A stretch of DNA of 64,000 nt from an uncultured Eubacteriales bacterium (lineage in GTDB: Bacteria; Bacillota; Clostridia; Lachnospirales; Lachnospiraceae): positions 124,001 to 188,000 of the forward strand of contig CATOIK010000001.1 of NCBI GenBank assembly GCA_951800645.1, read 5' to 3'. The notes below the pieces were generated by a model. The model worked only from the letters and a program-made list of their open reading frames with translations. It did no database searches and was not told where the DNA came from. Shown here in pieces: positions 46,093 through 53,226 of the stretch (the stretch's first letter is position 1; each line of letters begins with the position of its first letter). Position numbers and translations under genes: made by a program.

Positions 46093-47243
46093 ATGAATAT
46101 CTTACAAAGAATCTTTACCGACTATTATGAAGAAATTAAATATACTCTTCATCCCAGAGATACTGAGATGGAAAATATCGATAAGATGTTAGGCTGCGGC
46201 GATTCTTCCTTCGGTGGTGCAATGTATGTCTGCACCCATTGTGGCAATTTAAAATTTGTTCCCTTTCGCTGCCACAGCCGCTTTTGTCCCACCTGTGGCA
46301 ACAAATATGCCATGGAACGCACTACCAATATGGCTTTTAAACTGGTCAATGTTACTCATCGACATTGTGTGTTTACCATTGATGAAAATCTCCGAGATTT
46401 TTTTCTTCATGACCGTTCTCTGCTTCACTGTCTTTTTCATGCTGTGAACAGCGTTATTTCTCGTATGTTTTTTACAATGAATAAATCCAAAAATTTCACT
46501 CCCGGCTTCATCATGGTTTTGCACACCTTCGACAGAGACCTCAAATGGCCCCCCATATCCACTGCCTTCTTTCAGAAGGTGGGGTTAGTAATGATGGCTT
46601 CTGGCGTCATGTCAAACACTTTAACTACCACTACCTTCGCAATGCTTTCCGCACCGCACTCTTGAATGAAATGGAATCTAAGATTGGACCTGCTTTTAAA
46701 AAAGTCAAGTCCAAATGTTACAGCGAGCATAAGCAAGGGTTCTATGTTTATGCCAAACCTAATCTTTGTGATCCTAAAGCAGTTATCAAATATATTTGTC
46801 GTTATCTTGGTCGACCTGTTATTGCTACTTCCAGAATAGACAACTATGATGGTGATACTGTTACTTTCCACTACAACCGGCATGAGGATAATAAATACAT
46901 AGAAGAAACACTCCCTTCCATTGAGTTCATCAAAAGGTTAATCCGACATATCCCTGAAAAACACTTTAAAATGATTCGATATGGCGGCTTATATGCCAGA
47001 CACCGAAAAACAGATGAAAAACTTTATCGTGCCATTTCGAAAAGCAAACAGCGCTTTTACCGAAGTTTCAACCAATGGCGAACTGCCATTCTTTCTTCTT
47101 TTGGTTACGATCCTTTAGAGTGTCCTGACTGTAAACACAAAATGGAGCTTTTGGAACTTTATTACAATCATAAATGCGTATCCCTCGAAGAACTCTATGA
47201 GAAAGCAATGTCCAAATCTCTCGGAAAGCGTTCTTCTGCATGA
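46093..47243 (+). pseudogene. IS91-family transposase, frameshifted in a C6 run
   Basis: The first frame (46093 to about 46554) encodes the zinc-binding N-terminus. Cys47, Cys50, Cys60/His61, Cys65 and Cys68 lie in YVCTHC...FRCHSRFCPTC. It then runs to VLHTFDRDLKW. The second frame (from 46545 to 47243) continues with MAPHIHCLLSEGG, holding the HUH-type His-X-His, and KYICRYLGRP, the catalytic Tyr region. Read together they give the normal IS91/Y2 transposase of about 380 residues. The break is at six C residues (46549-46554); a seventh C restores the frame. It may be a pseudogene or a slippery site. Confidence 0.8.
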
Positions 47244-48631: not shown

Positions 48632-49444
48632 ATGAACCAAAGAACCGATCAAGACCGATTAAACAACGCTATACGGAACGCCCAGTGCCGTGCTAGAAAG
48701 GTCATCACAGCAAACAAATGGACTTATTTTGTCACACTCACTTTTGCAGACGCAAAAACAAGGGAAAACTATCAGCAATGCGTAAACCAGATGAAAGAAA
48801 TCAACAAACTAATGAAAAGCCTTGGTTACTCCTTTTTCTACACAATCGGCTTAAACAAGGACAAGCAAGGCTACCATGTCCATGGTCTTATACTGCAATC
48901 AATGAAAGGACTTCGCCCTCTGTCCGGGGAAGTACAGAAAAACATTGTTCATATAAAAACCGCAGGCAGGTGTTTTGAATTTCCGGTATTGGATTGTTAC
49001 GGTGTAGGCTGGCAAGTATTCCAGGAAATCACACCCGCAGAGCAGAATCTGGACGACTATATGCGTATTGCATGCTATATTCTTATGCACTTCGCTCCCA
49101 TGAAAATCCATCTTTTGGAGAAACTGCACATGAACTATTGTCATCTATACTACCCGCCCCGAAGTGTAGCAAGGTCAAAGTCACGCTCTTATTGTATGCA
49201 GGGCGGTTTCCGGGCAAGACTGTATAACAACATCAATAACGCGGCGGCTGTTGTTACAAAATGCACTCACAGTCTTTTTGCAGATGTATTGAAGCAATCC
49301 GGGAAGGTTGAAGTATATAAAAAATTTGGACTATGGTATATGCGGGTAGTTGGAGAATATCAAGTTATAAAAGCACTCATAGAGATATTTGCAGAGCCCT
49401 ACGAATTATACAGACGCAAAATCGTGATCTCATCAAGTAAATAA
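48632..49444 (+). CDS. HUH-type rolling-circle replication initiator-like protein
   Basis: A 270-residue protein with GGAGG upstream. Motif 1 is YFVTLTF (residues 32-38). Motif 2 is the HUH metal site in GYHVHGLIL, with His82 and His84. Candidate catalytic Tyr residues are Y143 and Y149 in DDYMRIACYILMHF. No helicase domain is present. Such proteins nick DNA to start rolling-circle replication of small plasmids, filamentous or micro-phages. The C-terminal 100 residues are not recognised. It is AT-rich and stands next to the tRNA cluster; an integrated plasmid or phage remnant is the best reading. No coat or mobilisation gene is nearby. Confidence 0.55.
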   Translation: MNQRTDQDRLNNAIRNAQCRARKVITANKWTYFVTLTFADAKTRENYQQCVNQMKEINKLMKSLGYSFFYTIGLNKDKQGYHVHGLILQSMKGLRPLSGEVQKNIVHIKTAGRCFEFPVLDCYGVGWQVFQEITPAEQNLDDYMRIACYILMHFAPMKIHLLEKLHMNYCHLYYPPRSVARSKSRSYCMQGGFRARLYNNINNAAAVVTKCTHSLFADVLKQSGKVEVYKKFGLWYMRVVGEYQVIKALIEIFAEPYELYRRKIVISSSK

Positions 49445-49590: not shown

Positions 49591-49663
49591 AGCTTCCAGC
49601 CGGACTCGAACCGGCGACCCCTTCATTACGAGTGAAGTGCGCTACCAACTGCGCTATGGAAGC
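49591..49663 (-). tRNA. tRNA-Thr (anticodon CGT)
   Basis: A complete 73-base cloverleaf. Acceptor GCTTCCA/TGGAAGC, D arm GCGC...GCGC, anticodon stem CTTCA/TGAAG with loop CTCGTAA (CGT at 34-36), T arm GCCGG-TTCGAGT-CCGGC. The CCA end is not encoded. It reads codon ACG. Confidence 0.95.
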
Positions 49664-49716: not shown

Positions 49717-49772
49717 AAATTCCATACCAATTCTTCCATATTTTATGGGCTTTCCCGCAATATCACACAATA

Positions 49773-49812
49773 CATTACGAATGCGTTGCGCTACCAACTG
49801 CGCTACGGAAGC
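49773..49812 (-). pseudogene. 5' half of a second tRNA-Thr gene
   Basis: Forty bases match a tRNA up to the start of the 3' anticodon stem: acceptor GCTTCCG, TA, D arm GCGC...GCGC, stem ACGCA, loop TTCGTAA (CGT). The T arm and 3' acceptor are missing, replaced by unrelated AT-rich sequence. It differs from the intact tRNA-Thr in acceptor base 7 and the anticodon stem, so it was a separate gene. The break lies at the anticodon region. Confidence 0.75.
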
Positions 49813-49821
49813 GTTTAAAAA

Positions 49822-50214: not shown

Positions 50215-50424
50215 TCACTCAACAGCGAGTACCTTATAATCCTGTGCTTCTACAGCCTTTTTCAGCGTCTCATCGGAAACTTCCGCGTTTAAGGTTACTA
50301 CTGCCGTTCCTGTCTCATGGCTAACTGCTGCTTCAGCCACGCCCTCTAAGGCTTCCAGCGTCTTTTTTACCCGCGCCTCGCAGTGTCCGCACATCATTCC
50401 CTCGATTTTCATAGTTTTTGTCAT
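50215..50424 (-). CDS. copZ: CopZ-like copper chaperone, nested in frame at the end of copA
   Basis: The last 69 codons of copA form a complete heavy-metal-associated domain starting [19 protein letters not shown], with Cys residues 12 and 15 of the domain and a typical length for free CopZ. AAGGAGG (CCTCCTT at 50433-50439) lies exactly eight bases before the ATG at 50424, and translates as Lys-Glu-Glu in the fusion. A ribosome could start here and make free CopZ. No stop codon divides it from copA, so either both products are made or the fusion is a recent loss of a stop. Internal initiation is inferred. Confidence 0.6.
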
Positions 50425-52764
50425 TGTTTCTTCCTCCTTGTTTGCCTGGATTGTTTCTATCTGTACTGCATTCTTAAGTTTTTTATCCTTCGATGCATGA
50501 TACATTTGGAATAAATTCAGCCGCAGGGCGTTGGTTACTACACAGAAGCTGGACAGGCTCATAGCCGCTGCACCGAACATAGGGTTTAACTTCCATCCGA
50601 ATATAGGATACCACACGCCGGCTGCCAGCGGGATGCCGATTACATTGTAAATAAACGCCCAGAACAGATTCTCGTGAATATTCCGTAGTGTAGCACGGCT
50701 TAAACGGATGGCAGCCGGCACATCGCTTAAACGGCTCCTCATCAGAACCACATCCGCCGCGTCAATGGCAATGTCCGTACCGGCGCCGATGGCAATGCCG
50801 ATGTCTGCCCTGGTAAGGGCCGGCGCATCGTTGATGCCGTCTCCCACCATAGCTACCATGCCCTGCTCCTTCAAGGAGCGGATCACCTGCTCCTTTCCCT
50901 CCGGAAGCACTCCGGCAATGACCTGGTCTACGCCGGCCTGAGTACCGATAGCTCTGGCAGTCCGCTCATTGTCTCCTGTCAGCATAACCACCCGGACGCC
51001 CATATTCTGCAGCTCCTTAACGGCTCTGGGACTGTCTTCCTTAATCACATCCGCCACGGCGATGATTCCCGCCAGCTTTCCTTCTCTGGCAAAGAACAGG
51101 GGAGTCTTGCCTTCCTCTGCCAACTGCTCCGCCTTCTGTTTCAGGTTTTCCGGAACTATGGTTTTTCCGGAAATAAACTTCTGGCTGCCGCCTAACAGCT
51201 CTGCCCCATGCAGCCGGGCAGAAAGTCCGTTTCCAGGAAGGGCTTTAAAATCCTCAACCTCCTCTGCCGTCATTTTCAGCTCCTGGCCTTTAGCCAGAAC
51301 CGCCCTGGCAAGAGGATGCTCGCTTTTAGCTTCCAGCGCATAGGCCAGAGCCATTAGGCTTTCTAAAGTCTCTCCCTCTGCCGGATGAACATCCGTCACC
51401 TTCGGTTCCCCGCTTGTGATAGTTCCAGTTTTATCCAAAGCCACAATCTGCACCTTTCCGGTCTGTTCCAGGGAAACTGCGGTTTTAAACATAATACCAT
51501 GTTTTGCGCCCATACCGTTTCCTACCATGATAGCTACCGGCGTAGCCAGTCCCAGAGCACAGGGGCAACTGATCACCAGCACAGAAATGCCTCTGGCTAA
51601 GGCAAAACCAAAGCTTTCCCCAACCAGCAGCCATACGATGGTAGTAATGGCTGCAATGGTAATAACTGCCGGCACAAACACGCCGGAAACCTTGTCTGCC
51701 ACCTTGGCGATCGGCGCTTTCGTGGCCGCAGCATCGCTTACCATCTGAATAATCTGTGACAGGGTGGTGTCCTCTCCCACCCGGATGGCCTGGCAGCGGA
51801 TAAAGCCGGACTGGTTGACTGTGGCAGCAGACACCTTATCTCCCTCTGCCTTATCCACCGGAATGCTCTCTCCTGTCAACGCCGATTCATTGACAGCGCT
51901 GTGTCCCTCTAAAACAACGCCGTCCACCGGAATATTCTCTCCGGGGCGCACCACGAATATATCTCCTTTTGCCACCTGCTCAATGGAAACTGTAACCTCT
52001 TTTCCGTCCCGGATCACATTGGCAGTTTTCGGCGCCAGCTTCATCAGGCTTTTTAAGGCGTCCGTAGTGCGGCCCTTGGAGCGGGCCTCCAGCATCTTTC
52101 CAACAGTGATCAAGGTGAGAATCATGGCTGCTGACTCAAAGTAGAACTCGTGCATATACCCCATAACCCCATCCATATCCCCCCGCATCTGGGCGTCTGT
52201 CATGGCAAACAGAGCGTAGGTGCTGTAGACGAAGGCTGCTGTAGAGCCTAACGCCACCAGAGTATCCATGTTGGGGGATCTATGCCACAAGCTCTTGTAG
52301 CCGCTGATAAAAAACTTCTGGTTAATAACCATGACAATAGCCGTCAGAATCAGCTGCAAAAGTCCCATAGCCACATGGTTGCCCTTTAAAAAGGAAGGCT
52401 CCGGCCAGCCCCACATCATGGTTCCCATGGAAAAATACATCAGCACTGCCAGAAAGCCTACAGACCCATAGAGCCGTTTCTTTAAAACCGGCGTCTCGTG
52501 ATCCTTTAGCATCTCCTCTGCTTCCCCATTATACCCGCCCCCAGTACCGGCCTCCCGGCCTGCTGCTCCTTTCACCGCTGCACCGTAACCGGCGTTCTCC
52601 ACTGCTGCAATGATCTCCTCCGGGGAAGCAGTTCCCTCTACCCCCATGGAGTTGGTCAAAAGGCTGACGGAGCAGGAAGTAACGCCAGGCACATTGCCCA
52701 CTGCCTTCTCTATCCGGGAGCTGCAGGCAGCGCAGCTCATTCCTGTTACTGAATATTGTTCCAT
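50215..52764 (-). CDS. copA: Copper-translocating P-type ATPase with HMA domains at both ends
   Basis: An 849-residue P1B-type ATPase that exports Cu(I). The N-terminal HMA domain has the metal site [10 protein letters not shown] (Cys11, Cys14). The actuator has TGES. The membrane metal-binding CPC is in [10 protein letters not shown]. The phosphorylation site is DKTGT and the hinge is [10 protein letters not shown]. An extra C-terminal HMA (from residue 781) has [10 protein letters not shown] and is preceded by an internal ribosome binding site. The upstream csoR gene and CsoR operator suggest copper-induced expression. Confidence 0.95.
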
Positions 52765-52776
52765 ATTCCATGCCTC

Positions 52777-53076
52777 CTATTTCATCAGTTTCTGAAGGAC
52801 TGTCACCAGCTCGTCTATGGCCTCGTCCTTCCCAACACGAATATCCTGGGCCACGCAGGTGCGGATATGGTTAGCCAACAGCACCTTGTTAAAGCTGTTT
52901 AAGGCGGCGTTGGCAGCAGCTACCTGCACCAGGATTTCCGGACAGTAGCAGTTTTTCTCCACCATCCCCTTAATTCCTCGAATCTGACCCTCGATCCGGC
53001 TTAACCGGTTGATTAAATCCTTATATTCCTTCTCTGACCGTTTCTTGGTCTTGTGACAACAACAGTTTTCTTCCAT
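52777..53076 (-). CDS. csoR: Copper-sensing repressor CsoR
   Basis: About 99 residues from the ATG at 53076; a longer frame runs upstream but lies across the promoter and operator. The all-helical DUF156 domain has the Cu(I) ligands in order: Cys in NCYCPEIL, and His plus Cys in NHIRTC. RLSRIEGQIRGIKGM is the family's DNA-contact helix. Cu(I) binding releases DNA. It precedes copA by 12 bases and would regulate itself and copA through the operator at 53132-53148. Confidence 0.95.
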   Translation of the reverse strand: MEENCCCHKTKKRSEKEYKDLINRLSRIEGQIRGIKGMVEKNCYCPEILVQVAAANAALNSFNKVLLANHIRTCVAQDIRVGKDEAIDELVTVLQKLMK

Positions 53077-53131
53077 AATGCCCGCCTTTCCGGTTCCGGC
53101 GGCTGGTTTGGGTAATAGAAAGGAAATCCAT

Positions 53132-53148
53132 ATACCCCCACCGGGTAT
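53132..53148. promoter_or_regulatory. CsoR operator
   Basis: ATACCC-CCACC-GGGTAT: a perfect 6-bp inverted repeat with five bases between, the usual CsoR site. It covers the predicted start of transcription of csoR-copA, so bound CsoR would block initiation. Confidence 0.8.
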
Positions 53149-53152
53149 CAAT

Positions 53153-53181
53153 ATTATAAAAAAGAAAGGGGAACCTGTCAA
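53153..53181 (-). promoter_or_regulatory. Consensus promoter of csoR-copA
   Basis: On the minus strand: -35 TTGACA (53176-53181), exactly 17 bases, -10 TATAAT (53153-53158). The -35 lies in the loop of the polC terminator hairpin. Confidence 0.85.
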
Positions 53182-53197
53182 TAGGATTCCCCTTTTT
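53161..53197 (-). terminator. Rho-independent terminator of polC
   Basis: On the minus strand the stem AAAGGGGAA / TTCCCCTTT, extended by CCT/AGG, closes a loop containing the csoR -35. A run TTTCTTTTTT follows. It begins about 30 bases after the polC stop. Confidence 0.85.
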
Positions 53198-53226
53198 ATG
53201 TTACAAAATTCAGCGCAGCATCCCAA

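Follow-up and report, generated by a model that had tools for sequence, protein, structure and literature searches.

Escherichia coli reportedly produces the free copper chaperone CopA(Z) from its copA gene by programmed −1 frameshifting, as Meydan and Drees are said to have described in 2017. The frameshift by −1 is described as efficient and gives a product of 70 aa in addition to the pump of 834 aa (PMC5009743). For CopA of Archaeoglobus fulgidus an additional C-terminal copper site has been described, for which a regulatory function is suggested (PMC7558416). Internal initiation within one reading frame is described for Haloferax, where Cas11b is produced as the C-terminal part of cas8b (PMC11899642).

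The copA gene analyzed here lies in a window of 64,000 nucleotides from an uncultured Eubacteriales bacterium. It resembles the E. coli gene in that a single copA would yield both the pump and, as a separate protein of about 70 aa, a copper chaperone. In E. coli, however, the chaperone comes from the 5′ end by a frameshift, whereas here a second start in the same frame would yield it from the 3′ end, and the lineage differs as well. The gene product shares with A. fulgidus CopA that it is a copper ATPase with an additional C-terminal metal-binding site, but that site is suggested to be regulatory and its description makes no mention of an internal start. Like Cas11b, the short protein would begin at a methionine within a longer ORF; the Haloferax case is archaeal and concerns other genes, whereas the proteins here are the metal pump of a bacterium and the chaperone belonging to it. 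In members of the same class with separate copA and copZ genes (L209, L219, L226 and others), copA is likewise followed by a CopZ-type domain that has a start of its own and an equally strong Shine-Dalgarno (SD) sequence. Their two genes are divided by a stop codon that is missing here, hence a fused product would be made here as well. Among the titles and abstract openings of the open-licence PMC literature no description of an internal-start copZ was found, although one may be in print elsewhere. The production of two proteins from one gene by internal initiation is thus known from other systems, and the genomes compared below suggest that the copA/copZ case is widespread in the class to which the window belongs.

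We consider it highly likely, with a probability of about 0.87, that this is one gene for two proteins, the pump and a free CopZ, produced by in-frame internal initiation. According to this model copA and the nested copZ would give two proteins from one mRNA. Ribosomes initiating at the copA start would produce the copper pump of 849 aa, to which a CopZ domain is tethered, and other ribosomes would bind the AAGGAGG sequence near the 3′ end of the reading frame, start at the ATG 8 nt further on, and release CopZ as a free copper chaperone of 69 aa. Free CopZ would gather cytosolic Cu(I) and pass it to the pump, while the tethered copy would serve as a C-terminal metal-binding or docking domain. 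Initiation in cells, the ratio of the products, the distinct functions of the free and the tethered form, and the handing over of copper to CopA by a soluble free CopZ are parts of the model that we infer.

A preliminary description of the locus had reported an AAGGAGG sequence 8 bases ahead of an in-frame ATG that is not divided from copA, and its coordinates, spacing and 69-residue length all proved correct (Table 1). Translation of the minus strand gave 69 sense codons ending at 50218, followed by a TGA stop at 50217-50215. The nested ATG shares its frame with the copA ORF (52764-50215), with no stop codon between the two starts, so that SD and start codon lie inside a longer ORF in the same, stop-free frame. 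The two products proposed in the same description, an ATPase fused to a chaperone and a free chaperone of 69 residues, receive strong comparative support from the related sequences discussed below.

Table 1. Features of the copA locus and its upstream region (positions in the window)
Feature	Position	Strand	Remarks
copA, Cu(I)-type P1B ATPase, 849 aa	50215..52764	−	ORF and domain search
copA protein domains: N-terminal HMA domain; C-terminal CopZ-type HMA domain	50215..52764	−	
Internal Shine-Dalgarno sequence AAGGAGG	50433..50439	−	spans K-E-E codons of the fused protein
Spacer between SD and nested ATG, AAGAAACA, 8 nt	50425..50432	−	
Nested in-frame ATG	50422..50424	−	8 nt 3′ of the SD
Nested copZ, 69-aa CopZ-type metallochaperone	50215..50424	−	MMCGHC motif; stop included
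Linker, end of NALRL motif to nested start, 31 codons	50425..50517	−	
csoR-type repressor gene	52777..53226	−	upstream of copA; Pfam PF02583 3.4e-29, residues 68-146
Promoter-like site TTGACA-17-TATAAT	53153..53181	−	12-of-12 sigma-70-like match; 5′ of csoR
Imperfect palindrome ATACCCGGTGGGGGTAT	53132..53148	−	after the promoter-like site, before csoR

The copA product contains the Pfam domains E1-E2_ATPase and Hydrolase and two HMA stretches, and it scored 596.9 bits against TIGR01511 (cut-off 397). The P-type ATPase core domains together with the CPC membrane motif, present in the translation as SCPCALG, place it in the CopA family. Family membership and the csoR-type neighbor suggest that it transports Cu(I). 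When searched alone, the 69-aa domain matched HMA at 2.8e-17 over profile positions 1-58 of 62; it is a complete HMA domain with the CxxC motif (in MMCGHC) and the size of a CopZ. The closest solved structures are HMA domains of copper ATPases, followed at lower rank by CopZ proteins, and the PDB relatives include CopZ entries 6ff2, 1k0v and 2qif. The domain covers the CopZ model NF033795 almost completely (positions 2-65 of 66), but the cut-offs of the named CopZ models were not reached, with 56.1 bits against 91 for NF033795, 54.9 against 85 for NF047957, and 47.8 against 95 for NF033794. The nested domain is CopZ-like and not assignable to these three named families.

Upstream of copA, the listed TTG start of csoR at 53226 precedes the promoter-like site, so the true csoR start is probably located further downstream. 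The palindrome at 53148-53132 is what we take to be a putative CsoR-like operator. A copper-induced csoR-copA mRNA that also carries the nested copZ would be the natural expectation. A promoter scan revealed no convincing promoter directly before the nested start. Inside copA it gave 9-of-12 matches only, at 50628-50600 and 51983-51956, and the scanned region as a whole contained 6 matches compared to 2.8 expected. An internal promoter for a copZ-only transcript is possible.

To describe conservation within the genus, the 69-aa domain was used as query against 24 genomes, including that of the window. In 22 of these the domain terminates an ORF of 847-894 aa, and each of the 22 has AAGGAG, mostly as AAGGAGG, shortly 5′ of an in-frame ATG; the residues ahead of the nested start vary freely among them. 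The other two genomes (G019 and G022) gave weak domain matches only (1.5e-4 and 2.5e-5). In one genus member an ORF of 861 aa (L031, on G014:C17) carries a further, diverged HMA domain at its C terminus, and here too AAAGGAG precedes an in-frame ATG. At the family level 320 of 397 genomes matched the domain at 1e-12 and 77 did not. Among the 150 family matches listed, 142 are located within ORFs of at least 600 aa by a transcribed count, and the other eight are three free copZ-like ORFs and five matches cut by contig ends, three of which stop at a contig end while two run into a contig start according to their coordinates. The true short ORFs of the family are L145-L147, and one of their genomes, G074, also has a fused copy. 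In L146 (G092:C24) a free copZ with an SD directly follows an apparent csoR-type gene, with no copA in between.

A wider set was compiled from the best 80 loci of a contig scan, the family, the genus, the window's own genome and extra regions; the scan records carry the titles Lachnospiraceae, Blautia, Butyrivibrio, Oscillospiraceae, Acutalibacter, Mogibacterium and others. Out of 164 loci (L001-L164), 148 qualified as fused and removal of 12 near-duplicates left 136 non-redundant loci. The 16 excluded loci had a weak or absent domain, fewer than 100 open codons upstream, or a free gene, and include L112, which is cut by a contig start, and the diverged fused paralogue L031. An in-frame ATG was present in all 136 loci, at the aligned domain start in 135 and displaced by a codon in one, a count biased towards ATG because the query domain itself starts with Met. 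The GGAG core occurred in 124 of the 136, where the fraction is biased because most loci were chosen for their top-ranking E-values and the counts are not independent because the loci are related by descent. The distance from GGAG to ATG in these 124 was 9 nt in 105 cases, 6 in 11, 8 in 5 and 12 in 3. Of the remaining 12 loci, seven have AAGGA, three have GAGG, and two have no listed motif within 20 nt, namely L095 and L099, the latter with its SD before an earlier in-frame ATG. Among carriers with a name, Butyrivibrio sp. MC2021 (L065) has a weak SD, GAGG, and Acutalibacter sp. 1XD8-36 (L086) has AAGGAG; in both the gene is fused and the nested ATG is present.

The strength of the SD sequences was compared by calculating duplex energies with the anti-SD sequence. 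The mean energy before the nested ATG was −10.4 kcal/mol for the 136 loci. In these genes the other in-frame ATGs (1735 sites) gave −4.0, and linker windows farther upstream (272 windows) gave −1.9. In a synonymous simulation in which the amino acids were kept and the codons redrawn by each gene's own usage (1000 runs), the mean was −7.32 (sd 0.27, lowest value −8.10) against −10.36 observed, and GGAG appeared in at most 79 loci in any run against the 124 observed. The aggregate was used because the per-locus p-values are uninformative singly (p ≤ 0.05 in 4 of 136 loci, mean p 0.36, combined p 0.006). The strength of the synonymous evidence is in the aggregate, and per locus it is weak.

Conservation at this site could also reflect a protein-level motif, K-E-E...M-T-K-T, that is retained for the sake of the protein, and indeed Lys is present at codon −5 in 80 of 136 loci and Glu at codon −4 in 121. 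These residues are, however, almost always encoded by the codons that build the SD, with AAG for 77 of the 80 Lys and GAG for 117 of the 121 Glu. Linker codons −7 to −30 use AAG in 152 of 560 cases (27%) and GAG in 40 of 181 (22%), and the gene bodies use them in 2142 of 3847 (56%) and 2158 of 3894 (55%) cases, respectively. Furthermore, the GGAG occurs in phase 2 in 119 and in phase 0 in 5 of the 124 loci, and among the 60 fused class and phylum loci with SD and start in phase 2 in 37, phase 0 in 12 and phase 1 in one, being absent from 10. Since the SD sits in different codon phases, the same SD is spelled by different residues (K-E-E, K-E-G-E or K-G-G). Codon choice strongly disfavors the protein-level explanation, to which we give next to no credence. 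The comparison argues that selection acts on the nucleotides of the SD and start beyond what the protein needs, and that the nested SD and start are neither a product of chance nor a recent relic.

Internal SD sequences can cause ribosome pausing, and an SD-like sequence at this position might slow translation after the last membrane helix and aid folding or membrane insertion with no initiation involved. The linker between the NALRL motif and the nested start, which is variable in sequence too, spans 18-77 codons in the 136 fused loci, a region in which pausing could be helpful. Pausing requires no start codon, yet an ATG is kept close behind the SD, or in one case a GTG: in L182 (G492) this GTG follows a strong SD, and Val takes the place of Met in the fused protein. 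The start keeps to the SD while its distance from the last helix differs fourfold among the loci, and in L190, L191 and L252 the SD and the start are displaced together. We regard pausing as a very improbable explanation for the site.

Predicted mRNA folding was weakest at the nested ATG, with −2.38 kcal/mol per 60 nt as compared to about −12 to −17 at positions at least 75 nt away. Composition-matched shuffled sequences gave −2.63, and 88 of 136 loci were less structured than their own shuffles. Because the shuffles fold about equally, base composition explains nearly all of the openness, and open mRNA at the nested start was dropped as separate support.

The maintenance of the reading frame bears on the function of the fused form. 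In-frame stops are absent from all 136 linkers, by selection of the set, and the other two frames contain stops in 103 and 133 of the 136 linkers; with these frames so rich in stops, remaining in frame is not free. It is conceivable that free CopZ is a real second product and that its in-frame linkage to the pump is a functionless, tolerated read-through fusion. The strong SD suggests plentiful free CopZ, and a tethered CopZ may be dispensable. The family data do not agree well with a linkage of no value, as the 150 matches listed comprise the 142 in-frame domains in long ORFs against the three free ORFs. That the frame was kept although the alternative frames of these linkers contain many stops suggests that the fused form is selected too, and we consider a functionless linkage unlikely.

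To examine the distribution at higher rank, a 132-aa CopA core lacking the nested domain was used as query. In the class it matched 131 of 148 genomes and in the phylum 113 of 119. The loci that were classified, 90 from the class and 43 from the phylum, are mostly the closest ones, so that the fractions given for them are biased. The class is presumably Clostridia, with further cases elsewhere in the phylum. Of these 133 loci 63 are fused, 31 have a copA-stop-copZ-like arrangement, and 39 are without a nearby domain, although L240 (G453) was misclassed in the last group, having a CopZ-like ORF directly 3′ of copA. From L165 on, 18 loci were left out of the 133 as repeats or as free copZ only, including L259 (G197), which is fused with an SD and not a repeat. 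A start codon with an SD energy of −5 or below was found in 60 of the 63 fused loci; 8 of these 63 belong to genomes that lie outside the class. In L275 and L277, both outside the class, the SD is read as K-G-G rather than K-E-E, in another codon phase. SD energies of −7 or below were found for 84% of the 63 fused loci, 83% of 30 separate copZ genes, and 5.4% of 1451 control windows, with mean values of −9.0, −9.4 and −3.1, respectively; the separate group is 30 of the 31 loci and includes L283 and L286, which encode a cysteine-motif protein unlike CopZ and are misclassified. In a quick tree of 130 rows, from which 3 of the 133 were omitted as too short, 61 of the 63 fused rows fall within one 68-row group whose deep forks are weakly supported, and the fused versus non-fused state requires 7 changes. 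This suggests that the fusion is old, with a few gains or losses. Fused loci with SD and start occur in 33 families by our own count from the tree.

The preliminary description had proposed a comparison with related Lachnospiraceae for a stop codon ahead of the nested ATG; such stops do occur, in the 31 of 133 class and phylum loci, but mostly outside the family. Separate copA-stop-copZ arrangements and the equal strength of fused and separate SDs make a fusion of the stop-loss type the likely origin of the gene. Both would also fit a mere relic, in which a copA-copZ operon was fused by loss of the stop, the SD and ATG became meaningless, and only the fused protein is made. A meaningless site would have decayed as the linker did, yet this one persists in 33 families and at synonymous positions, which makes a relic quite improbable. 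The same observations leave the earlier idea of a recent fusion that merely retained its old SD unsupported. The sequences point instead to an ancient copA-copZ fusion which probably became a class-wide design, with a nested start kept by selection, a tethered and a free chaperone, replacement of a separate copZ, and an evolution independent of the E. coli frameshift.

Natural exceptions were found in three fused loci without an internal start: L183 and L196, from one family, and L197. All three genomes contain a small HMA gene that is separate and has a start of its own; for L197 (G279) it is located just upstream of copA. Free CopZ-like ORFs were counted up to 110 aa at E ≤ 1e-7, a size limit chosen after the hits were seen. 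Of the genomes with the internal start 8 of 49 had such an ORF, and of those lacking it 14 of 15 (Fisher 9e-8, uncorrected for ancestry). The 15 are 12 genomes in which copA has neither the domain nor a copZ nearby, by our own classing, plus the three exceptions; the fused genome G522 was outside this search. Within the fused group of the tree the counts were 8 of 47 against 8 of 8 (1e-5), and raising the limit to 145 aa gave 14 of 49 for genomes with the internal start. Among the 14 free ORFs those of G479, a fragment at a contig end, and G462, with a stop inside the match, are doubtful, and some of the small free ORFs may not be copper chaperones. Independent pairs for the association number 2 on well-supported branches and 6 on all branches, which is not enough for a sign test. 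On these counts, most genomes that lack the internal start have a CopZ-like gene of its own elsewhere.

If internal initiation occurs as proposed, two distant bacterial lineages use different translational tricks to obtain a pump and a chaperone from one gene, which suggests that producing both proteins from one mRNA is useful in itself. It would add a small protein to many Clostridia that is missed when the long ORF alone is annotated, and it would allow free and tethered metallochaperones to be compared in a natural system. The tests of codon choice, phase and start displacement may serve as a simple screen for functional internal starts that uses genomes only.

Other features were noted in the window. 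An IS91-type transposase at 46093-47243 (plus strand) is split across two overlapping frames, with the zinc-binding domain at 46093-46665 and the Y2 transposase domain at 46545-47243. The protein encoded at 48632-49444 (plus strand) weakly matches the REP_ORF2-G2P replication-associated family, below the cut-off, and adjoins a tRNA cluster; it may mark an integrated element. A tRNA-Thr gene is located at 49591-49663, and an apparent partial repeat of its sequence, seen by eye near 49766-49815, might be a trace such as an integrated element leaves.
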